Below are positions 1,783 through 15,009 of a DNA stretch of 64,000 nt, piece after piece. A model generated the notes under the pieces. The model had not been told where the DNA came from. It worked only from the letters and a program-made list of their open reading frames with translations, and did not search any database. Both the position numbers and the translations under genes were made by a program. Every line of letters begins with the position of its first letter. Position 1 is the first letter of the stretch. Source of the DNA: Candidatus Obscuribacter phosphatis (GTDB taxonomy: Bacteria; Cyanobacteriota; Vampirovibrionia; Obscuribacterales; Obscuribacteraceae); NCBI GenBank assembly GCA_001899315.1, contig MOYA01000001.1, positions 1,588,599 to 1,652,598 of the forward strand. Direction: 5' to 3'.

Positions 1783-4700
1783 CTATTTATGTTCGCCAAT
1801 TAACTGAAAGGCGGCCCAATACCTTGGATTAGCTCGAATCTTAGTACCATCCTTGGCTGGAGGAAATTTCATATCTTTCTCCATAAAGTTAACGGTTTTA
1901 AGTTGAGCTTCGCGCAGAGCTACCGCCTTGTCTTTTCCGCTCAAGAAACTTTGATAGAAGGCACTCATCTGAAATTCTGTCATCACATCGTCGACATTCC
2001 AGAGACTGACAATAATGGAAGGTGTACCAGCCAGGAGAAAAGCTCTGGAAAGTCCAGCAACCCCATCCCCAGTAATTCTGCCTCTACCGGTTTGACAGGC
2101 CGAGAGTGTGATTAATCTTGCCTTGAGAGGGGGAAGCTTAAGAATATCTCTCACTGTGAATAGACCATCATCATTTGTACTGCATGCCAGAAGCACTGAA
2201 GAGTCCATAGGTCTATCTTGGTCAATCAGTCCATGGGTGGCAAGGTGGATCACTTCCGACTTGGGACCAAGCTCCCGCAAATTAGTCCTCGAAGCATCGG
2301 CGCCTGTCTTCAATACTGCACCAGCACCAAAAAGCTCAGCAATCTTCTTCGCCTCGCGCTCACTGTAAGGAAGGGGCGGAATACCAAGATCGCTCCTCAT
2401 AGTCGGGTTGCCAAAAACCAACATGTTGGCAGGTTTGCCGCTTAGAGATTGAGCCAGCTTATGGGTGCCGCGAAAGACGCCAATCGCCGGAACGACCGCA
2501 AGAGTATGCGATTCTATGAATAAGTTTCCCTTCACATCGGTCAATGCGGCAAATGGCACATTGTAAAGAGCGCCATGCGGAACAACCGTAACTACCTTTG
2601 CAGGTTCGGAAGGAAGAAGTCCTTCAATAGGAGAAATAAGGAGCTTATGAAGTTCCTGCAAATTTCTCTGCCGCCGCTCGTTTGAAGCCTGTAAGTCAGT
2701 CAACGACTGCGGAGGAGAAATTATAGAATCATAGGTCTTAGCCACCAGATTATTGAGATCTCGAGATGAAATAGAGAGAGGTAAAGCTGTCTTCACCTGC
2801 CCGCCTTCCACCACAAAGACGAATATACTGTCACCAGCTGAATAATACTCAACTATAGTGCTGTCCGATTCAATGGCAAGCTGTTTCAACTCAGCCTTGT
2901 CCGGAGCTTTCGCCGAAGCTTCCGAGGTTATAGAATCACCTTCCACTACCTGGACTTTAGGAACTATCTCGACAGCTCGATCCGAACCACCTACTTTCTT
3001 TGAAAGAGCGCCAATCTCAGTCAGTTTCAGGTGCTCTTCCGAATTTGAGGTAGAGACAGTACTGAGTCCCTGTTTACGTCCTTCGAGCAGATCTAGAAAG
3101 GCTCTTGCTCTGCCTCTTTCTGCAATCTCCAGAGCATCATCAAAGCGATTACTTTTCACCAAAAGCGTAACCAAAGACTGAAAGCAAGCGCCACGTAAGT
3201 CCAGTGTGTGCGTTTTTGAATCGTCTCTGGTATGTTTTGCTTTTTCCTTCTCAAACAAGCTGATCGCCTTGAAATAGTACGTCTCTGCATCTTTGAGATT
3301 GTTCAATATTTGATTTGCCGCACCTAAACCATACGAGCATTCCCATTGCAGGTCGATAATCCCAGAATCAACCGCCAAAGGTTGGGCTTTCTTGAAATAA
3401 GACAGTGCATTTGAAGCCAACTGCATAGCCTTATCATCATTGACTTGCTTGTCCGCACGATTAGCCACACCTGCCAGATTCAGCGATGTCAATCCGAGAC
3501 CATTCAATGCTCTAATCTGTCCCTTGCGGTCACTTACATCTTCAAAGTCCTGAAGAGCGATCTTGAATTCATCCAATGCTTTGCTATAGCTATCTTCAAA
3601 TCTATTGAGAAACTGAGCATGGTTGAAATAGACATAGCCAGCCAGTCTTTTGAACTCAAGTGAATCTTTTTGTTCTTTACCAAGATCCTTCATAGCATTC
3701 TCAAGCTCAGCAAATTTTTTCTGGTAAAGATCCAACTTACCGGAGTCAAGATAAAGACAAGCAAGACTATTCATAACTGCGAGCGATTTAAGCTGATTCC
3801 CATGCGAACTAAACTTTCTGAAAGCCTGTTCGTAATACTCGCTTGCAGCCGAGTACTGACCTAATTCTCTATAGCACATAGCAATTGAATTCAAGGTCTC
3901 GCCAGGCAGCTCTTTATCTTCCAAAGTCTGCCCGGACAACTTGCTGTTTATCTCCAGAAAGCGCTTGAGCGCCTTATCTATAGCGCCCTCAAGATAATAA
4001 TCATAGGCAAGCTCAAACTGATTTTCTAAGACCAAGCTATTCTCAGAAAGGCTTAAAGCCAACTTAGCAGAGTCACCATGAAAGCGCTGCGCCTCTGCAA
4101 AATTACCGATGTCGGCATAAGCTGAGCCTAGTCTAGACAATACTAAGGCAAGACTATGTTTATCATCTTCTTGGTCAAAAATCTCGTGGGCTTTATTTAG
4201 CTCTGTAAGAGCTTCATTTGGCTTACCATAGGCGAGCAAGTCGTTGGAAAGATTGAGAAGAGCCTTGCCTTCTCTCAAAGGCTCTCCGCAATTCAGGAAA
4301 ACTGCTGCCGATTTGCGGTATGCGGTGATAGCACCGGCGATATCACCTGCTAGTTCCTTCAGTTCGGCCAGAGCAAGGTTCACTTCACCGACCAGCGACT
4401 CCTGATCATTATCTCCAAGCAACTTGAGCGCGCTTTCAGCCTCGGCTATAGCCTCTTTCAGTTTCCCCTCGCTCTTCAATATTTTTGAGATATTTAGACG
4501 CGCTTGAGCTTCTAAAACATAATCGTTTGATTTAGCGGCACAGTCTTTGCTCTTTTCAAAGTAACCGCGGGCATCTTCATAGCGTCTGGCAAAAATAGCA
4601 TTGGTGCCAAGATTGGAATAAGTCAAAGCCTCCAACTTGAGAGAACCAGTTTCACGAGCTATATTCAGACACTCTCCATAAAATTTCTCAGCCGCTGCAA

Positions 4701-5031
4701 AATCTTTCTTAAAGCCATACACCATGGCAATAGCACTAATGTCTTTGAATACATCAGCTGGTTTAGCAATGCTGCGATCAATAGCCAGAGTCTCTTCAAG
4801 GAAAGGCAGAGCATCGTCAAATCTTCTTTTCTCAGCAAGATATTGACCGAGCTGATACAGTGCTAAACCGAGATCACTCTTTTTGCCAGAACTTCTTAGT
4901 TTTTCTATTTTTGAGCGCAGCCCCGCCTCTTCGTCGCCTTGGGCAAATGTAAGGCTGGCAGATAGACTCAGGGTAAGGGCGAGAAAAACTGCAACTTTCC
5001 TTGAAAGTCCTGCCACACGCGAAAAATACAT
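1783..5031 (-). CDS. Exported TPR-CHAT domain protein (predicted caspase-like cysteine protease)
   Basis: 1082 residues. A signal peptide (~1-30, ending SLTFAQ) precedes about 600 residues of tetratricopeptide repeats, with recurring helix pairs such as ALYQLGQYLAEKRRFDDA and AYADIGNFAEAQRF. The C-terminal ~300 residues form a CHAT domain (caspase HetF-associated with TPRs). The catalytic dyad is visible: His933 in HLATHG and Cys979 in LSACQTG. CHAT proteins of this build are thought to cleave proteins, with the TPRs acting as sensor or scaffold; the substrate here is unknown. The signal peptide places it outside the cytoplasm, unlike gasdermin- or Cas-linked CHAT proteases. It follows the FecR-like gene with a 21-bp gap and is probably in the same operon. 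Confidence 0.9.
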   Translation of the reverse strand: MYFSRVAGLSRKVAVFLALTLSLSASLTFAQGDEEAGLRSKIEKLRSSGKKSDLGLALYQLGQYLAEKRRFDDALPFLEETLAIDRSIAKPADVFKDISAIAMVYGFKKDFAAAEKFYGECLNIARETGSLKLEALTYSNLGTNAIFARRYEDARGYFEKSKDCAAKSNDYVLEAQARLNISKILKSEGKLKEAIAEAESALKLLGDNDQESLVGEVNLALAELKELAGDIAGAITAYRKSAAVFLNCGEPLREGKALLNLSNDLLAYGKPNEALTELNKAHEIFDQEDDKHSLALVLSRLGSAYADIGNFAEAQRFHGDSAKLALSLSENSLVLENQFELAYDYYLEGAIDKALKRFLEINSKLSGQTLEDKELPGETLNSIAMCYRELGQYSAASEYYEQAFRKFSSHGNQLKSLAVMNSLACLYLDSGKLDLYQKKFAELENAMKDLGKEQKDSLEFKRLAGYVYFNHAQFLNRFEDSYSKALDEFKIALQDFEDVSDRKGQIRALNGLGLTSLNLAGVANRADKQVNDDKAMQLASNALSYFKKAQPLAVDSGIIDLQWECSYGLGAANQILNNLKDAETYYFKAISLFEKEKAKHTRDDSKTHTLDLRGACFQSLVTLLVKSNRFDDALEIAERGRARAFLDLLEGRKQGLSTVSTSNSEEHLKLTEIGALSKKVGGSDRAVEIVPKVQVVEGDSITSEASAKAPDKAELKQLAIESDSTIVEYYSAGDSIFVFVVEGGQVKTALPLSISSRDLNNLVAKTYDSIISPPQSLTDLQASNERRQRNLQELHKLLISPIEGLLPSEPAKVVTVVPHGALYNVPFAALTDVKGNLFIESHTLAVVPAIGVFRGTHKLAQSLSGKPANMLVFGNPTMRSDLGIPPLPYSEREAKKIAELFGAGAVLKTGADASRTNLRELGPKSEVIHLATHGLIDQDRPMDSSVLLACSTNDDGLFTVRDILKLPPLKARLITLSACQTGRGRITGDGVAGLSRAFLLAGTPSIIVSLWNVDDVMTEFQMSAFYQSFLSGKDKAVALREAQLKTVNFMEKDMKFPPAKDGTKIRANPRYWAAFQLIGEHK

Positions 5032-5052
5032 GTTACTCCTTGAAGCTTACAG

Positions 5053-6054
5053 CTAATTTGAGCCCAATTGCGGTCTTTTCTCTGAGCCGTGTTCCGAACC
5101 GTGTTCCAAACCGTGTTCAAAACCCTGGGCGCCATTCATGTAGTTTAGCACCGCTGCCATTTTGGCTAGGTCTCCAAGAATTCTTCGCTCTCTAACTCCA
5201 CTTACTTTGGTTTGCAAATCGACCAATAGAGTCATTTTGTCTAAAGCCGATTCCAAGCTAAACTCACTCACAGCCATACATTTGTCTTCTAGTAAAGCGA
5301 AGTGGCGCCTTGCCACCCCATCGCGGGGTCTTAGCTCAGATCGACTGAGAGCATGATCAGAACTAACCAGTTCATGCCCAACCTTGAGAGCCATTGCCCT
5401 CGGCTCATGCTTAACAGACTCAAAAGATTGGCCATTCAGGCTGGCGCTAACTTCCGAGCCATGAATTCTTACCTTAATGCCTTCCCCTAAGCCTGATAGA
5501 TTGAGCACCCTCAAGATGCCATCTTCATACCGAATAATAACCTCGGCATCTGAATCTATCGAGATGTCGCCACGGGGCGTGGTCACTATTGCTAAATGAG
5601 CAGGGCGCCGCACACTGACCAAAAGTGTCCCTTCACTGAGGTGAATGGCAGCTGGTTGCGGTCTTTCGTATTGAGCGCCGGGCAAATGCTTGACCATGAT
5701 TCCATCTTCTGTCTCAGAGCGCGGATCTTTAAAGTTGAAGTCAATCTTTTTGACTGCATTAGCCGGATTGAGAATTGGCGCCGAGACACCAAGCGGAGCC
5801 ACCATCGACGCATTAGTGTAATCGGTGGGTACTAAAGGTAACGTGAAGTCGGTACGTGGCGGCGGCAAAACCGGGAATACCGGAAAGACAGGCTGGGTCT
5901 GAACTGGAACCACCGGAATGACAGGAGCACTGACTACCGGCGGCGGAGCAGAAGGAAAAGAAGGACTGACAGACTGAGCCAAAGCCGCTCCAGGAGCGCC
6001 AAAGATTGCAAGAAGCAGCAAGTTTACCGAAACAGCTTTGAGTTTACTCTGCAT
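5053..6054 (-). CDS. Secreted FecR-like domain protein with Pro-rich N-terminus
   Basis: 333 residues from the ATG at 6052-6054; a TTG four codons upstream is the alternative. A signal peptide (ending PGAALAQ) is followed by a Pro/Val-rich region (~25-75). A FecR-like beta-rich segment follows (~125-210, with LLVSVRRPAHLAIVTTPRGDI and DAEVIIRYEDGILRVLNL), comparable to the FecR domains found beside CHAT and sigma genes in cyanobacteria. The C-terminal ~80 residues are helical, and the extreme C-terminus carries a short EHGxEHGSEHGSE repeat. FecR domains often sense or transmit signals across the envelope; a direct link to the sigma-like protein upstream in this block is inferred. Annotation as FecR-like is moderate. 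Confidence 0.65.
   Translation of the reverse strand: MQSKLKAVSVNLLLLAIFGAPGAALAQSVSPSFPSAPPPVVSAPVIPVVPVQTQPVFPVFPVLPPPRTDFTLPLVPTDYTNASMVAPLGVSAPILNPANAVKKIDFNFKDPRSETEDGIMVKHLPGAQYERPQPAAIHLSEGTLLVSVRRPAHLAIVTTPRGDISIDSDAEVIIRYEDGILRVLNLSGLGEGIKVRIHGSEVSASLNGQSFESVKHEPRAMALKVGHELVSSDHALSRSELRPRDGVARRHFALLEDKCMAVSEFSLESALDKMTLLVDLQTKVSGVRERRILGDLAKMAAVLNYMNGAQGFEHGLEHGSEHGSEKRPQLGSN
5087..5122 (-). repeat. Three tandem 12-bp coding repeats
   Basis: Three adjacent 12-bp units (plus-strand consensus ccgtgttccRaa, third unit slightly diverged) encode the E-H-G-(L/S) repeats at the C-terminus of the FecR-like protein. The unit is a multiple of three and keeps the frame. Confidence 0.85.
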
Positions 6055-6113
6055 CACTGCACCCAATCTGAAAAGTAGCTCTATCTACCAGTCTATCGCC
6101 AAAATTAGTCGGA

Positions 6114-7370
6114 TCAGTTTTTCTTCAATAGGACAGTATTGAGAGCTTGCTCTACATCTAGTCTCAATTCGGTTGCCGTTTGATACCTGTCATCAGGTTC
6201 TTTTTTGAGCAACTTGGAAATAATCGGCTCAAAAGGATTGCCGACCTCAAGAATATCCGGGCGCACTGATGAAATCGGAGGCGCATCCTCAAGCAAATGT
6301 TTCATCAATATCGATTCTGCAGACTCGCCCTCGAACGGCACTTTGCCCGTGAGCATCTCAAACATCATAATGCCAATGGCATAGAGATCTGTTCTGATAT
6401 CAATGGGGCGATCCTTAAGCTGCTCGGGGGCAATATATTCCGGTGTTCCGACCATTCTTCCGGTCTTGGTTAGACGTTTGCTGCCGTGCACTAAGTTAGA
6501 GATCCCGAAGTCAACAATTTTGACCCAATCAGGTCGGTCTGATTTATGCTGCAGCAAGACATTATCCGGCTTCAAATCTCTATGGATAATTCCCATACTA
6601 TGGGCTTCTTGCAAGCCGCGACACATTTGAACAATGATATTGCCTGTAGTAGCATATGGCAAAGCCCCCTGACTATGTATCTTGTCGGCAAGAGCTTCAC
6701 CCTTGATGTATTCCATAACCAAATATGGTTCTTTGCCGCCAATCGAACCCACATCGTAAACAGAAACAATATTGGGATGATTGAGCTTAGCCGTCAGTTT
6801 GCATTCACGTTCAAATCTTTCAATCGAGTTTTTGTTGCTCAAAAGCCAGCCTTGCATGACTTTGATAACAACAGTACGCTCCATCTGCACATGGTTGGCC
6901 TTATAGACAACGGCCATGCCGCCTTCACCAAGCACGTTCTGAATTAGATACTTGCCATCGATGGTCTTGCCAATCAAAGCAGAATAGGGACCATCCGCCT
7001 CTTCATCGTCATCGAAATCTCCCGGTCCGGCAGTCAACTCAGCCGGTTGAGAATATTTGCTGACGTCTACGGTGTCACCGCCAAGTTCAGCCGCAGTCGG
7101 ATTAGCAACTCTCGGTGCGGTGGGCAAGGCTTCAGGAGTCGTCGTAATCTTTACAGGCTGACCCTTTAAGACTTCCAAAGAACTTCTATCAAAGGCGCAA
7201 AAATTGGCATAACCTGGAAAAAACCTGCCGCAGACATTACAGATTTTGCGAACGTCTCCACCTGTGCGCGCTAAAGTAAGATCAGTCCCATCATAGCCGC
7301 AAAATTTGGCCGCGCGAGGCAATTGCTTACCGCAAGTGGGACAGACTACAAAGGCTGCATCCTGACTCAT
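6114..7370 (-). CDS. Serine/threonine protein kinase with N-terminal double zinc-ribbon-like segments
   Basis: 418 residues. Two short Cys-containing ribbons open the protein (C10xxC13 with C24; C44xxC47 with C58). In each the usual fourth Cys is replaced by Asp in a CxxD context, so zinc binding is uncertain. After an acidic linker a complete Hanks-type kinase domain spans ~138-413: glycine loop GEGGMA at 148-153, Lys170, catalytic HRDLKPDN at 263-270 and DFG at 287-289. No membrane segment or PASTA domain follows, so it is probably cytosolic. Its ATG overlaps the stop of the upstream zinc-ribbon gene (TAATG), implying coupled translation. Targets are unknown; neighbouring FecR, CHAT and sigma-like proteins are candidates by context. 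Confidence 0.93.
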   Translation of the reverse strand: MSQDAAFVVCPTCGKQLPRAAKFCGYDGTDLTLARTGGDVRKICNVCGRFFPGYANFCAFDRSSLEVLKGQPVKITTTPEALPTAPRVANPTAAELGGDTVDVSKYSQPAELTAGPGDFDDDEEADGPYSALIGKTIDGKYLIQNVLGEGGMAVVYKANHVQMERTVVIKVMQGWLLSNKNSIERFERECKLTAKLNHPNIVSVYDVGSIGGKEPYLVMEYIKGEALADKIHSQGALPYATTGNIIVQMCRGLQEAHSMGIIHRDLKPDNVLLQHKSDRPDWVKIVDFGISNLVHGSKRLTKTGRMVGTPEYIAPEQLKDRPIDIRTDLYAIGIMMFEMLTGKVPFEGESAESILMKHLLEDAPPISSVRPDILEVGNPFEPIISKLLKKEPDDRYQTATELRLDVEQALNTVLLKKN

Positions 7371-8137
7371 TACTTACCTCCGGGAATGCCGGGTAATAGA
7401 GGCAGAGAAATTGGTTTATCAAGCCCGAGACAGTTGAGTCTATCTTTAGCCATCTCGATTTTCTGCAAAAGAGTGCGGCAGCCTGGGGCACTAAGGCGCA
7501 ACCTATATGCAGGCAAGGACAAATTTGTTGAATAAAAGACGCCACGGTTTGAGGTTTGCCCGGCCACATATTCCTTCCTGTCTAATGACTCTAAAAGTAC
7601 ACCAGCATTGGGTTTATCTGAAAAGACAAGTAGCCCCTGACTCGGAATTTGACTGGCAAGATAAACATGGCTAAGAAGGGTTGAACCTAGAAGAAATGGC
7701 ATTGCCAAGCCCGAAACCAAGCCCAAAATAATAAAGAGGTCAGGACGCGTCGTTGCCTTAGCCGGTACAGGCAGAGCCGGCAAAGCCACTTGAGACTGGC
7801 GAGAAGAGGAAATATTTATAGGCGATGACTGCGATGACGAAGAAGACGGCGCAGATAGCGAATTGAGATCGTCGTTAAACTTTGCCAAAGCCTCGGCTGA
7901 GGTCTTACGAGTTTGAAAGATCTCAATGTCCGAACCGCAAAACACGCAATATCTATTATTCAGTTCATCAGAGCGCCCGCAAGAATTACAAGAGCGCTTC
8001 TTGACTCCTCGCGCTTGCCTGAGAGCTTCCACAGATGAAGAGAGGACCTTGCCGCATTGGGCGCAGAAGGACATGTCGGAGCTATTTACCGCCCCACAAC
8101 TCTTACAATCTACCGATGTTGCCGCACCCGCTTGCAT
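7370..8137 (-). CDS. Zinc-ribbon membrane protein, partner of the adjacent kinase
   Basis: 255 residues. Two four-Cys zinc ribbons lie at the N-terminus (CKSCG...CAQCG at ~11-28 and CNSCG...CVFCG at ~50-68). A Ser-rich linker follows, then one transmembrane helix (~130-155, LFIILGLVSGLAMPFLLG). About 95 residues lie beyond the membrane with the feel of a carboxypeptidase-regulatory or PEGA-like beta fold (NAGVLLESLDRKEYVAG, GVFYSTNLSLPAYRLRL). It overlaps the kinase gene by one base (TAATG), and the shared zinc-ribbon style suggests a two-gene signalling unit with a membrane sensor and a soluble kinase. That pairing is inferred. Confidence 0.8.
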   Translation of the reverse strand: MQAGAATSVDCKSCGAVNSSDMSFCAQCGKVLSSSVEALRQARGVKKRSCNSCGRSDELNNRYCVFCGSDIEIFQTRKTSAEALAKFNDDLNSLSAPSSSSSQSSPINISSSRQSQVALPALPVPAKATTRPDLFIILGLVSGLAMPFLLGSTLLSHVYLASQIPSQGLLVFSDKPNAGVLLESLDRKEYVAGQTSNRGVFYSTNLSLPAYRLRLSAPGCRTLLQKIEMAKDRLNCLGLDKPISLPLLPGIPGGK

Positions 8138-8194
8138 GAGCCGATTGTACCCAATTGGAGGCTATGAGGGCAACATTGTCGAGAGCATATAGCC

Positions 8195-9466
8195 TCAATC
8201 AAGAACTTCAAGGTCGGCAACGAGGTCCTTGGTTGACTCGGCTAGATTGGCAACCTCTAGGAGACCAAGAGCTTCATTAATAGCATCGACACCACTCTCA
8301 GATGAGCTATGAGTGGCATAGGCCGGCTTGAGAGAAAGTTGCTGGAAGGCCATGCCAATCTCTTCAACTGAAGCACAGACAAAACCTTGGACTACTTCAC
8401 CGCGACTTTTCTTGATTACCGAAGCCAAATCGACGGCAACTTGATTAGAGACCAGTTGCTTAACTGCTTCGATGCTTGAGACACCTTTGATTATTTTCTC
8501 TATAAGCTGATTGGCTCTAGCCGGCACAGTCTTACCCTTTAGTTCTAGGGCTAGAGCCTCGTTAAGAAGAGTGGATTTGAAGTATGGAGAAGCAATTTGC
8601 CCACCGCAGGTGGCTCCAGTTCTCTCAACCAGCAAACGCAGCTCTTCTCTAGAAAGCCGCTCAAATCGCACTTTCAGCCTATCTACAATCTTCTCTACGC
8701 GCTCATTCCAAATAGATGCATCCTGTAGAACTTGCTTCAGCTGCCTGGCAGAGAGAATGCGAAACTCATCAAGCATGGCGCAAGTTTGCTCCGACCATGA
8801 AGAACAAATGTAAGAAAAAATCTGCTTCCGGCGTGCTGAGATAAGTTTCTCTGAACCATTGAGCAGCTCTTGAATATCGGCTTTTGGGTCAGTCAAACGA
8901 CTGGTCTGGGGCAATTTAACGATTGGCTTAGCCAAGAGTTCGACTAGGCAAGAAGCAAAATCGAAAGCGCCCTCCGGCTTCAAATCACTGAAAGCATAAG
9001 CGACCCTGTCATCTTGAGATGAGCGACAAGCTTCTTCGGTCTTCATCCACACGCCGGCGCCAATAAAGCCAAGCACCTGCCCCTTAAACTGCATATCGTT
9101 TGTCAGGTCCACCACCATGGTACCCAAACTGAGATACTGAGAGCCAATCAAAGCCCTATCAATGCTTACTTTGCCTTCGGCATCCAAAGCTCGCACATCA
9201 ATACGGTGCCCGTTGACAACAATATCACTGACCCCAACAGAAGCACAAAGATTTGCTGAACTGCACATCGCAGCAGATTCATCTATCAAAATGTCCAACT
9301 CAGGATCTAAAGAGTAGACCAGGTTCTCAACAACCAGCCTAGCTAATTCATCATTAAAAGCCCTGCCCGAGGCTCGCTTCTGGGTCATTCTCACCTGTTC
9401 AGGACTGAGCGATACAGCCCCGTTTGAGGGATCGCTGGCTAGGTCCAGATTTGAAAGGTTATTCAT
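8195..9466 (-). CDS. Protein of unknown function, possible remote DUF1822-like protein
   Basis: 423 residues with no signal peptide or membrane helix. The N-terminal half has a helical segment (FNDELARLVVENLVYSL) then a beta-rich part (SDIVVNGHRIDVRAL through TMVVDLTNDMQFKGQVLGFI). This layout resembles DUF1822 proteins that sit beside sigma-like genes in cyanobacteria, but key DUF1822 motifs are not clear enough to assign it. The C-terminal half is helical with many charged residues. An AGGAG ribosome binding site lies just upstream of the ATG at 9464-9466. It follows the sigma-HhH gene by 66 bp on the same strand. Function cannot be stated. Confidence 0.75.
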   Translation of the reverse strand: MNNLSNLDLASDPSNGAVSLSPEQVRMTQKRASGRAFNDELARLVVENLVYSLDPELDILIDESAAMCSSANLCASVGVSDIVVNGHRIDVRALDAEGKVSIDRALIGSQYLSLGTMVVDLTNDMQFKGQVLGFIGAGVWMKTEEACRSSQDDRVAYAFSDLKPEGAFDFASCLVELLAKPIVKLPQTSRLTDPKADIQELLNGSEKLISARRKQIFSYICSSWSEQTCAMLDEFRILSARQLKQVLQDASIWNERVEKIVDRLKVRFERLSREELRLLVERTGATCGGQIASPYFKSTLLNEALALELKGKTVPARANQLIEKIIKGVSSIEAVKQLVSNQVAVDLASVIKKSRGEVVQGFVCASVEEIGMAFQQLSLKPAYATHSSSESGVDAINEALGLLEVANLAESTKDLVADLEVLD

Positions 9467-9532
9467 GGGAGGCTCCTAGATTTATGGAGGTCGCACTATC
9501 TTGTGGCAATCTCAACGGCAAGCTCGAAAAAA

Positions 9533-10984
9533 TTAGTGGGGAAAAAGTGCAAGACAAGATCTTTGCCTGATTATTTGCCAAACCTGGGAATCAGGGGCAA
9601 GGTACTCTTCAAGTTCACCCCAGGTTGTGAATGGACGTCCTCTTAAAATCTTTTCACCGACAGATCTTGGCAAGCCGAGTACAAGAAGCCCTTCCAAATC
9701 GCATGAATTCAAATCTAGTCTTTTCTCTCCATCTTTGCTCTGGGCACGAACAGTGCATCCTCTTCGCAATAAGGAGTCGGCCAGCTCGGCAGAAATATGC
9801 ACCTTTTCAGTGAGATCTTCGAAGCTGGAAAAGGGTCGGAGACTGGTCAGTTTCTGCGCGAGATCTTTCTGAACACCGAGAATATCGATCATATCTCTCG
9901 TGGTGCAACTATTTATATCAACAGGTACAAAGGCAGCCACGGCGCCATTTCGACGAATTTCTTCCAATCTTCCTGACTTTTGCAGAACCGATGCGCTCAG
10001 CTCATCGAGTGTCATATATTGCCGACCAGCTACCAACCGGTCGACCTCACCCTCGGTCAGTCCAAGTTGGTGAGTAAGTTCTCTTCGAGAAGCAGTATTT
10101 ACATTGATATCTGACTGCCAACATTCAGCGACGCTTGGCATACGAGTTCTGATTCGATTGCGAATCATATCCAAACCTTTATCAAGCAGAACCTGACAGC
10201 GGGCTATTTTTCTTGCTTGTGTTTCGCCCGGCAAAGAGAGAATCTCGCAAACTTCTCTCATTGTCAGTTCTTTACCAATAGTAGATTTCTCGGTTAACGC
10301 CAAACCAAACATCATGTCGACAACTACCAAAGGCTCATGATTGACCGATTTATCCTCAAGCATCTCTTTCAATACCACTCGCAACTCATTTAGCTGGTCA
10401 ACTTGTTCGGCTGAAAGAGCTCGGTTCTCGGGCGCATACTTAACGTCATCGGCGGTGCAGTGCCGAGGGTCCTCCTGCTCAGGATCTAGATTGAGATCCT
10501 GGAGGGTTTCCTTCTCCCACTGCCACTCCTCTTTAATATAATCAATAGCGGCGTTGTGCACAGAACGCTGCACATAAGCAGGAAGCAGAACCTTGAACCC
10601 ATCTTCATTGCGCTGATCCAAGTGCTTGCGCAGAACGCCTTCCATTTTGGTAGCAAGCTCGGCTGCCAGAGATAGAGCTTGGGCTTTTTGAAACTCATTA
10701 TCATGGCGGCGCTGAGACCAGAACCGCTTTAAGCTCTGGTTGGAAGAAAGCATCTTGGAAAGCATTGGCTGGTAATACTCATCTTTGATAATCCGCACCA
10801 ATTGCGGAGAATCATTGGACAAAGCCAAGCATTTCAGAAAAACAGAACGAGCGCCAAGCCTTTCGAATAGCTGATAAGCACTGACATTAGCCCCGACGGA
10901 ATCAGCCATTAAGCTGTCATGAATTGGCTTCCAATCTGGCGCCAGAGCTAATATTTCTGCAACTATAGTGCGGCTGGTAAGCAT
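9533..10984 (-). CDS. Sigma-70-like protein fused to three ComEA-type helix-hairpin-helix repeats
   Basis: 483 residues. Residues 131-157 (LLPAYVQRSVHNAAIDYIKEE) look like sigma region 2. Residues 240-278 (LTMREVCEILSLPGETQARK...) look like the region 4 helix-turn-helix. The C-terminal third contains three helix-hairpin-helix units, each opening with (I/L)-(N/D)-(V/L)-N (291-330, 354-396, 422-462), of the ComEA type that binds DNA non-specifically. I know of no standard sigma factor with this tail. It may be an alternative sigma factor, a degenerate sigma used as a DNA-binding regulator, or a nucleoid protein. It heads a same-strand block with DUF-like, kinase, FecR and CHAT genes, and the 12-bp gap from the small membrane-protein gene suggests one operon. 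Confidence 0.7.
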   Translation of the reverse strand: MLTSRTIVAEILALAPDWKPIHDSLMADSVGANVSAYQLFERLGARSVFLKCLALSNDSPQLVRIIKDEYYQPMLSKMLSSNQSLKRFWSQRRHDNEFQKAQALSLAAELATKMEGVLRKHLDQRNEDGFKVLLPAYVQRSVHNAAIDYIKEEWQWEKETLQDLNLDPEQEDPRHCTADDVKYAPENRALSAEQVDQLNELRVVLKEMLEDKSVNHEPLVVVDMMFGLALTEKSTIGKELTMREVCEILSLPGETQARKIARCQVLLDKGLDMIRNRIRTRMPSVAECWQSDINVNTASRRELTHQLGLTEGEVDRLVAGRQYMTLDELSASVLQKSGRLEEIRRNGAVAAFVPVDINSCTTRDMIDILGVQKDLAQKLTSLRPFSSFEDLTEKVHISAELADSLLRRGCTVRAQSKDGEKRLDLNSCDLEGLLVLGLPRSVGEKILRGRPFTTWGELEEYLAPDSQVWQIIRQRSCLALFPH

Positions 10985-10996
10985 TGAATATTGTCT

Positions 10997-11428
10997 CTAC
11001 TCCGGTAAATTAGGCAAAAGCGGAGGTATGTCGTAAACCTGATCATACGCCATGGCAATGACAACACCAACCACAAGCCAGCAGACCCACAGACTTAGCC
11101 CGCTGAAATAAGTTAGTACCTTGACAGCAGTTGAAGCCCCGCTCAATCTCTGTTTAGTACCGAACATGACATCAATACGCCAGATTCCCCAGATTGAGGC
11201 AGCGCAACCCAGCCCGATGAGACCAGCCCGGAGGGCACGAGCTGCATTCAACTCTTCGTCGGTTACCGAAAAACGCCAGAGACAGACGGCATATGGAATA
11301 AAGAAGCCTGGAAATACCCACCAGAACCGCTTTACATTCTTGAACAAGCTGTTCTCAGAAGAAGCTTTTGCGCCTGCACTTGTGCCTGGGGCTCCCTCTT
11401 GGTTTTTCTCAATTGCCTGTTCGTTCAT
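10997..11428 (-). CDS. Small membrane protein with three predicted helices
   Basis: 143 residues. A ~30-residue soluble Glu/Ala/Ser-rich N-terminus is followed by three hydrophobic segments (about 34-52, 64-83 and 101-127). A short Pro-rich tail (YDIPPLLPNLPE) ends the protein. No catalytic motif is seen and the family is not recognised. It is the first gene of the minus-strand block, 12 bp before the sigma-HhH gene, so it could be a membrane partner such as an anti-sigma-like protein. It lacks any recognisable anti-sigma domain, so this is speculation from position only. Confidence 0.7.
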   Translation of the reverse strand: MNEQAIEKNQEGAPGTSAGAKASSENSLFKNVKRFWWVFPGFFIPYAVCLWRFSVTDEELNAARALRAGLIGLGCAASIWGIWRIDVMFGTKQRLSGASTAVKVLTYFSGLSLWVCWLVVGVVIAMAYDQVYDIPPLLPNLPE

Positions 11429-11521
11429 CCGCGACTCTTTCTAAGACCTCCTAATTGTATAGGCAATCGGGGTCTTTCATAAACGATCAATAGTTTGTTT
11501 AAGGCCCAGCCTAGCGTGCTC

Positions 11522-11527
11522 TATAAT
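11522..11527 (+). promoter_or_regulatory. Putative -10 box (TATAAT) upstream of the protease gene
   Basis: A consensus TATAAT lies 40 bp before the TTG start of the protease gene at 11568, in the divergent gap between it and the minus-strand block. The -35 side is weak: TTTAAG with an 18-bp spacer is the best match. Confidence 0.45.
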
Positions 11528-11567
11528 TTGAGAGCCATGACCCAAAAAAGACAGGAAAGTTCGGTCC

Positions 11568-13865: not shown

Positions 13866-13903
13866 TAGGGCGAAGAGTTAAACGTTCCGGATAAAAGCAT
13901 TGA

Positions 13904-13939
13904 AAAGACCCTGTCACTACTAATGGTGACAGGGTCTTT
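13904..13939. terminator. Strong hairpin terminator between convergent genes
   Basis: A perfect 14-bp stem (aaagaccctgtcac with gtgacagggtcttt) around an 8-base loop lies between the plus-strand DUF4384 gene and the minus-strand SOD gene. The stem ends in A/T bases on both sides, so it can serve both directions. Confidence 0.85.
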
Positions 13940-13975
13940 CCATTTCTTCAGCTCTAGTCTAAGTGAACTACATCA

Positions 13976-14785
13976 CTAAACAGTCAGCTCCAGACCAAGG
14001 GGGTACTTACTCACCGAAGCAAGACGCTTGGCAACAACGCCCCAGTCTACGTTTTTGGCGAATGCATCTAGATATTTAGCTCTGTCAACACCGTAGTCGA
14101 TCATGTAGGCATGTTCATAGACATCCAACGCGAGAATCGGAACAAAACCGGCTGGCGACCACATATTGTGCGTATCCAAACCAAATGTATCCAGATAACC
14201 GCCTCTCAGGTTAAAGCCGACTATCACCCAACCGCGCATGCTTTTGCCGCTTGCTTTCAAGAAATCCATAAATTTTCCGGTTGAACCAAAACGCTCATCA
14301 AGGGCTGCTTTTAAATCACCGGTAGGTTCACCGCCTGAACCTCCTAGATTGCCGAAGTAAAGTTCATGGTAGATGACACCGTTAACAGCGAAGCTTTGTT
14401 CCATGAGAAGTTCGCGCAGCGGAGAGTAAGTAGCGTTGGCACTGGCCAAATCCACTTCTTTCAGTTTGGCGAGAATCTCGTTAGACTTCCCGACATAACC
14501 CTTATAGAGCTTCAAATGCTGCTCAATTTGAGACTGGGAAAGACCGTCAAGCTTCTTGCCGACCAAACCACTAAAATCTCTAGCAACATATAGCTCGCCA
14601 GCCGCAGCATTCTTAGCCGGTGCGGCTGCTCCAGATTTAGCGGCATCGGCGGCGAGAACTTTGCCGGTGGACAAACCAGCTGCGGCAACAGCGCCCATCA
14701 AAAGTACATCACGCCTGGTGACAACACTCTTGCCACTCTGGCTGGTTTCATAATTTCCGATTGTTTCCTTATTGTCAGAGACCAT
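13976..14785 (-). CDS. Iron/manganese superoxide dismutase with Tat signal
   Basis: 269 residues from the ATG at 14783-14785, which has an AGAGGA ribosome binding site; a longer TTG start is less likely. A twin-arginine signal (VTRRDVLLMG, Arg24-Arg25) with an Ala-rich h-region (to ~47) precedes the SOD domain at ~65-265. The four metal ligands are present: His90, His140 (VIYHELYFGNL), and Asp221 and His225 (DVYEHAYMIDYG). Fe/Mn-SODs are usually cytosolic, so Tat export implies defence against superoxide in the periplasm, with metal loaded before export. Fe versus Mn cannot be told from sequence by eye. It is transcribed divergently from the malic enzyme gene. Confidence 0.92.
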   Translation of the reverse strand: MVSDNKETIGNYETSQSGKSVVTRRDVLLMGAVAAAGLSTGKVLAADAAKSGAAAPAKNAAAGELYVARDFSGLVGKKLDGLSQSQIEQHLKLYKGYVGKSNEILAKLKEVDLASANATYSPLRELLMEQSFAVNGVIYHELYFGNLGGSGGEPTGDLKAALDERFGSTGKFMDFLKASGKSMRGWVIVGFNLRGGYLDTFGLDTHNMWSPAGFVPILALDVYEHAYMIDYGVDRAKYLDAFAKNVDWGVVAKRLASVSKYPLGLELTV

Positions 14786-15009
14786 CAAAATATCCTCTTT
14801 CTGGGTTAGGTCGTAATTTTTGCGCAAGGGCTATTATTACTGTGGCAAAAACGAAGTAAATTGTTCCCGCTTTGCTTGCCAAGCTATTAAAAAACTTGGT
14901 TTAGCAGCACGATTTCGGCGCTCGTCAGCTTAACATATCCTCATTGATTAATCAGTTCGCCTCCTGAGAACCATCGGTACAGTTAGCCTCAATTCAAGAG
15001 AAAAATCAG

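Follow-up and report, generated by a model that had tools for sequence, protein, structure and literature searches.

In the EACC2 systems of cyanobacteria a caspase-like protein is paired with an ECF (extracytoplasmic function) sigma factor and a DUF1822 protein, and these systems, like TRADD-N loci, have been described as conflict-associated (Kaur and colleagues, PMC8195603). In type III-E CRISPR systems Csx30, which inhibits a sigma factor, is cut by a TPR-CHAT protease (PMC10028731). Here we describe a locus in which such parts recur, found in a stretch of 64,000 nt from Candidatus Obscuribacter phosphatis (assembly GCA_001899315.1, contig MOYA01000001.1, positions 1,588,599-1,652,598 of the forward strand; hereafter the window), whose genome of 5.49 Mb lies on 8 contigs and whose order, the Obscuribacterales, is judged from relatives with a matching gene B to be a non-photosynthetic relative of cyanobacteria. 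Seven genes on one strand, lettered A to G in order of transcription, are joined by a divergently transcribed pair that encodes a trypsin-like membrane protein and an exported DUF4384 protein (Table 1). The locus is real and conserved. Its kind is known, though not yet characterised, and it is probably the lineage-specific Obscuribacterales version of the cyanobacterial sigma-DUF1822-protease loci.

Conservation of the block

Gene order was compared in 33 loci fetched from Obscuribacterales genomes that carry B, some of the gene absences among them being contig ends. The sigma-like gene B and its partner C are neighbours in all 33 and in the window, and the gap between them stays under 115 bp. 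Of the 53 genomes of the order 40 have B, and C is present in exactly the same 40. The hypergeometric probability of this co-occurrence (1.2e-12) ignores relatedness and overstates independence, because the genomes without the block fall together in certain genera and in the sister family f2, which leaves fewer events than genomes. An orthologue of the trypsin-DUF4384 protein is present in all 40 genomes and in one incomplete genome besides. Counted by locus, the trypsin-like gene is present in 31 of the 33, the gene of the exported DUF4384 protein in 22 or more (the count at a stricter threshold), D in 25 and E in 26, against 10 for F and 11 for G. Among the proteases of the locus it is therefore the membrane trypsin-like protein, and not the CHAT protein, that is best conserved. 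Flanking genes are retained less often (superoxide dismutase in 14 loci, malic enzyme in 6), which marks the edge of the block there.

An earlier reading of the letters and their translated open reading frames (the sequence-only reading) had drawn the locus as seven same-strand frames between 1783 and 11428 with gaps of at most 66 bp, and had set a conserved neighbourhood in relatives as its test beforehand. All seven lie at that place and on that strand, the gaps being 12 bp (A-B), 66 bp (B-C), 57 bp (C-D), -1 bp (D-E, an overlap), 47 bp (E-F) and 21 bp (F-G), and the neighbourhood is indeed conserved, with B and C adjacent throughout. The limits had been set too narrowly, since the divergent pair, part of the conserved block, was left out.

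Kinship of gene C with DUF1822

The sequence-only reading had taken the 423-residue product of C for DUF1822-like. Pfam is blind to the resemblance, neither C nor any of the 30 family members scanned reaching the cut-off of DUF1822 (PF08852), but a profile link exists by way of intermediate proteins. PF08852 scores above its cut-off in most of the cyanobacteria sampled and in proteins from another order of the same class, which we read as Gastranaerophilales. Between C and these Gastranaerophilales proteins hhalign gives E 3.6e-7 (probability 92.9), and hmmsearch with the C profile finds them at best at 4.7e-7 (Z=1e6) with no reversed decoy; they in turn match cyanobacterial DUF1822 at 4e-9. 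Direct comparison of C with cyanobacterial DUF1822 is weak (E 0.0014, probability 18) and insufficient alone. Because the transitive links come with clean controls (unrelated profiles of the same locus gave 0.055 or worse in hhalign), we conclude from the profiles that the N-terminal half of C is related to DUF1822, though diverged from it. A structure model of C had no significant match in the PDB, a sequence search of solved structures returned nothing, and the literature found holds no experimental function for DUF1822.

The sigma-like protein B

The earlier call of B as sigma-like stands at the level of the family. TIGR02937 (NCBIfam) matches 16 of the 28 family members, with a best value of 1.5e-6, and leaves the window member without a match; CAS_III-E_sigma matches 10 of the 28 (best 1.5e-4) and Pfam Sigma70_r2 two (best 0.043). 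The C-terminal helix-hairpin-helix (HhH) tail is recognised throughout, HHH_3 being found in 28 of 28, and solved-structure sequence searches with B return mainly HhH proteins. The structure model of B has low overall confidence (pTM 0.38) and no significant match in the PDB; for the HhH tail, comparison with the ComEA-related structure 2duy gives a probability of 1.00 but an E value of 1.5. An HhH-tailed sigma-like protein had looked new, and in what was searched it is restricted to the lineage: the named GenBank matches belong nearly all to Candidatus Obscuribacterales/Melainabacteria or to uncultured Cyanobacteria, a few bins carrying other labels, and the B profile, run over 194 genomes of the phylum, met only HhH look-alikes outside the order.

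The divergent pair and the zinc-ribbon/kinase pair

The His/Asp/Ser triad of the trypsin-like protein is conserved in 32 of 32 sequences, and its C-terminal part aligns with the DUF4384 family (hhalign 2.1e-10). The absence of a hydrophobic segment at its N-terminus speaks for a cytoplasmic trypsin domain, but the charge pattern is ambiguous.

D and E each carry a double zinc ribbon. All eight zinc cysteines of D are conserved in 26 of 26 sequences, and positive residues lie mostly on the N-side of its transmembrane segment, with the ribbons on the likely cytoplasmic side. E matches Pkinase at 4.1e-56 and DZR at 3.5e-6; the lysine of its VVIK motif is kept in 27 of 27 sequences and the HRD and DFG residues in 26 of 27, the remaining row being gapped. 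D directly follows C in 23 of 26 pairs, and E directly follows D in 25 of 26. The pair had been taken for a new-looking insertion into a sigma/FecR/CHAT cluster. A recent insertion is rejected, as D-E is present in 25-26 of the 33 loci against about a third for F-G, so that the supposed insert is more widely conserved than F-G, and a zinc-ribbon protein already stands beside the sigma-DUF1822 pair in the sister order Gastranaerophilales. Two side observations concern these genes. In genus g8 C and D are separated by a pair of genes, each of about 600 codons (L040:8146-11891, likewise in L042), with a TldD/PmbA-type protease look by motif reading only. The repertoire of Ser/Thr kinases is large in G000 and its relatives, most genomes of the family having at least 10 matches to the kinase at E <= 1e-60.

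Comparison with described systems

The sequence-only reading had pointed to a cyanobacterial cluster of sigma-like, DUF1822 and CHAT genes, and such a cluster is seen in the cyanobacterial locus L126, which encodes a sigma-like protein, DUF1822, CHAT-CHASE2, DUF928 and TPR-CHAT. Our locus resembles EACC2-type loci of this kind in having the sigma-like gene next to DUF1822, a membrane protease-sensor nearby and, in part of the loci, an exported TPR-CHAT protein; the adjacency of ECF sigma factor and DUF1822 has its counterpart here in B-C in all 33 loci, with sigma matches in 16 of 28 members of the B family and C assigned by profile below the Pfam cut-off. It differs in the addition of the zinc-ribbon membrane protein, the zinc-ribbon kinase and the HhH tail, and in a C that has diverged beyond the reach of Pfam DUF1822. 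EACC2-type systems have a multidomain protein in which a caspase-like or CHAT domain comes after the EACC2 domain; in the 33 loci, searched without an EACC2 model, neither CHAT-CHASE2 nor any other cytoplasmic CHAT protein was recognised, the exported TPR-CHAT of 11 loci being the sole CHAT protein found; the divergent trypsin-like protein may stand in place of CHAT-CHASE2.

In Gastranaerophilales (L127-L135; for example L130:8980-15834) three genes form a conserved trio. The DUF1822 protein has about 1000 residues, and the single member scanned has a C-terminus that is TonB-like. Its sigma neighbour is about 190 residues long (Sigma70_r4 at 1.9e-9 in the single member scanned), and the third protein is made of a double zinc ribbon, an AAA/STAND-like ATPase and TPRs. 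The likeness lies in a sigma factor, DUF1822 and a zinc-ribbon enzyme in one block, with the ribbons at the N-terminus of the enzyme and with a DUF1822 protein homologous to C, whereas the enzyme is an ATPase and not a kinase, the DUF1822 protein is larger and the 190-residue sigma protein lacks the HhH tail; in the flanks no trypsin-DUF4384 pair was recognised. The parallel loci in Gastranaerophilales and cyanobacteria imply that both the zinc-ribbon element and the sigma-DUF1822 pairing are older than Obscuribacterales. The distinctive parts here are the kinase, the HhH tail and the divergent trypsin-DUF4384 pair.

With the type III-E Craspase (Csx29 TPR-CHAT, Csx30 and CASP-sigma) the locus shares the logic of a protease, a candidate sigma inhibitor and an ECF-like sigma factor in one place, and the B family weakly matches the CASP-sigma model. 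In contrast to Craspase, our locus has an exported CHAT protein, which some of the loci lack, and C has no detected relation to Csx30; no CRISPR parts (gRAMP/Cas7-11, Csx30) were recognised among the open reading frames read near the locus, where no specific search for them was made. The DegS/RseA/RpoE system offers a further likeness of logic, in that a serine protease anchored in the membrane acts on the inhibitor of a sigma factor, but no RseA-like membrane anti-sigma factor was found here and the trypsin domain is expected to be cytoplasmic.

Proposed mechanism and alternatives

From this anatomy, conservation and kinship we propose, tentatively, a sigma inhibitor relieved by proteolysis, which would turn an envelope event into transcription and which we consider the most likely mechanism. 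C would bind B in the cytoplasm and restrain it. The DUF4384 domain of the trypsin-like protein and its exported DUF4384 partner would sense the envelope, and the cytoplasmic trypsin domain would then cut C, or the B-C complex, freeing B to recruit RNA polymerase. As a second input, D may pass a signal across the membrane while E, docked through the matching zinc ribbons, phosphorylates B or C, and F and G would serve as an accessory envelope output in some genera. A sense-and-cleave envelope system had been suggested for the locus and may be present.

We favour proteolytic relief because B and C are invariably adjacent and occur in the same genomes, all of which have the trypsin-DUF4384 orthologue; because catalytic and zinc residues are conserved and DUF4384 recurs in both divergent proteins; and because of the link from C to DUF1822, the parallel loci in cyanobacteria and Gastranaerophilales, the precedents of EACC2 (PMC8195603) and Craspase (PMC10028731), and the weak match of B to the CASP-sigma model. 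Several results weigh against it. The B profile meets the cyanobacterial and Gastranaerophilales sigma partners near noise (0.017 and 0.044), a fold search with the B model returned no sigma factor at a significant value, and a promoter that depends on B was not found. The transmembrane flanks of the trypsin-like protein are similarly positive, so that its protease domain could be outside. The trees of genes within the locus are no more alike than they are to the tree of a neighbouring gene, which makes the comparison uninformative.

One alternative, which we judge unlikely though it deserves to be weighed, makes D-E the main switch, D sensing extracytoplasmically and E phosphorylating C or B, while the trypsin-DUF4384 and CHAT proteins would be envelope proteases under the same signal and not upstream of B. 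The tight order C-D-E, the conservation of all kinase and zinc residues and the clear topology of D suit this arrangement. However, L047, L053 and L064, to name the least number of loci whose flanks are intact, have the trypsin-like gene, B and C with no D-E seen behind C, and the trypsin-like gene follows the presence of B better than D-E does.

It is more doubtful still that the locus is a conflict system (anti-phage defence or programmed death), as has been proposed for EACC2 and TRADD-N loci, with the proteases as effectors and the sigma-like protein coordinating defence. Related cyanobacterial systems are described in these terms, and proteases and kinases are typical effectors, but the block is single-copy in each genome, has superoxide dismutase and malic enzyme genes near it in many genomes, appears to be inherited vertically across the family and is intact in distant relatives; PADLOC, run on the seven genes, gave generic kinase and TPR matches only. 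It is improbable that B has ceased to be a sigma factor and instead binds DNA or has a part in recombination (ComEA-like HhH), in what would be mainly an envelope or DNA-uptake unit, for although its HhH tail is far better supported than its sigma part and its structure model is of low confidence, TIGR02937 matches over half of the family and sigma region-4 partner genes occupy the equivalent place in Gastranaerophilales.

Transcription signals

The genes of the locus probably belong to two transcription units. Near the called start of D, GGTACAAT occurs in 16 of 26 genes (0.43 TACAAT expected), and a start correction (L059) adds one more box at the same 6-nt spacing; after correction the box lies 6 bases before the ATG of D in nearly all and is conserved across genera. 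The box is probably the -10 element from which a leaderless transcript starts, which would make D-E(-F-G) a unit of its own, with a promoter between C and D, and A-B-C another. In the interval before gene A (11429-11567 in the window) 8 of 15 loci have TACAAT, with 0.25 expected, and its commonest form is YTATACAAT; A-B-C thus probably has an ordinary promoter of the sigma-70-like type. GGTACAATC was rejected as the motif of a genome-wide B regulon, since the whole genome has a single exact match to it. The looser TAYAAT-N6-ATG occurs 41 times in the genome against 18 in the control, an excess of about twofold that fits leaderless -10 elements in general; one such look-alike that we checked lies antisense inside a histidine-kinase-like gene.

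Other genes of the locus

Pfam bore out the domain calls of the sequence-only reading for CHAT with TPRs, the kinase, the double zinc ribbons of D and E and the HhH of B; the FecR-like call for F was upheld weakly, by FecR (PF04773) matches in 6 of 10 family members (best E 0.011), and not in the window protein. F is called from a TTG at 6066, and an ATG at 6054, opening a signal peptide, is equally likely. The His-Cys dyad of the CHAT domain of G is conserved in 11 of the 11 aligned rows that cover it, and phmmer, in a small local set, matches G to TPR-CHAT proteins of the cyanobacterial cluster at 1.3e-71 and 1.5e-65. For the two other CHAT genes of the genome no sigma-like neighbour was recognised in the listed open reading frames. 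In some relatives (L046:10831-18397, also L048, L050, L051 and L052) the E-F-G stretch contains or adjoins between one and three genes for proteins of about 800 residues that span the membrane many times, and Pfam had no match for the one scanned. Homologues of A lie from -59 to 130 bp from B.

An eighth same-strand frame (1140-1736) begins 46 bp after G and is conserved in the closest relative only; its product, 198 residues long and apparently exported, has WGGWNSEA-type repeats. The superoxide-dismutase-like gene whose place beside the block is kept in 14 loci lies at 13976-14827, and its product has an RR-containing N-terminus.

Table 1. Features of the locus, with positions in the window.
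Feature	Position	Strand	Remarks
Gene G, exported TPR-CHAT protease, 1082 aa	1783..5031	-	CHAT domain 788-1080, 2.8e-69
Gene F, exported FecR-like protein, 337 aa	5053..6066	-	N-terminal hydrophobic segment
Gene E, double zinc ribbon and Hanks-type Ser/Thr kinase, 418 aa	6114..7370	-	no transmembrane segment
Gene D, double zinc ribbon, transmembrane segment (residues 134-152), C-terminal extracytoplasmic domain, 255 aa	7370..8137	-	DZR 2.6e-7
-10-like box TACAAT, fixed 6 nt before ATG of D, GGTACAATCGGCTCATG	8135..8151	-	
Gene C, DUF1822-related partner of B, 423 aa	8195..9466	-	B-adjacent in 33/33 loci and window
C residues 45-235, alignable to N-terminal region of Gastranaerophilales DUF1822 proteins	8762..9334	-	
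Gene B, sigma-70/ECF-like protein with C-terminal HhH tail, 483 aa	9533..10984	-	
HhH tail of B, about residues 290-475	9560..10117	-	Pfam HHH_3 and T2SSK in window protein
Gene A, small membrane protein, 143 aa	10997..11428	-	homologues upstream of B in 14/33 loci
Trypsin-like domain, transmembrane segment (232-250), DUF4384 domain, 410 aa	11568..12800	+	Trypsin_2 1.3e-9
Exported DUF4384 protein, 326 aa	12885..13865	+	DUF4384 2.5e-18
Terminator-like hairpin, 16-17 pairs	13904..13939 (wider limits 13901-13942)	+	closes divergent unit; reads on both strands

Implications

Taken as a whole, the locus could be a one-per-genome, lineage-wide switch in which an HhH-tailed sigma factor, restrained by an inhibitor of the DUF1822 type, answers jointly to a membrane trypsin-DUF4384 protease and to a membrane protein and kinase docked through zinc ribbons, an arrangement that in its entirety we consider rather unlikely. 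Such dual-input control of a sigma factor, by protease and kinase, is not described in the literature found. Comparison of the three groups suggests one ancestral sigma-DUF1822 pair plugged into different sensor enzymes, namely CHAT-CHASE2 in cyanobacteria, a STAND-like ATPase in Gastranaerophilales, and trypsin-DUF4384 plus kinase in Obscuribacterales. In the strictly conserved minimal block C always follows the sigma-like B, which would narrow the role of DUF1822 to inhibitor or partner of that sigma factor, a hypothesis that could be tested with two proteins.

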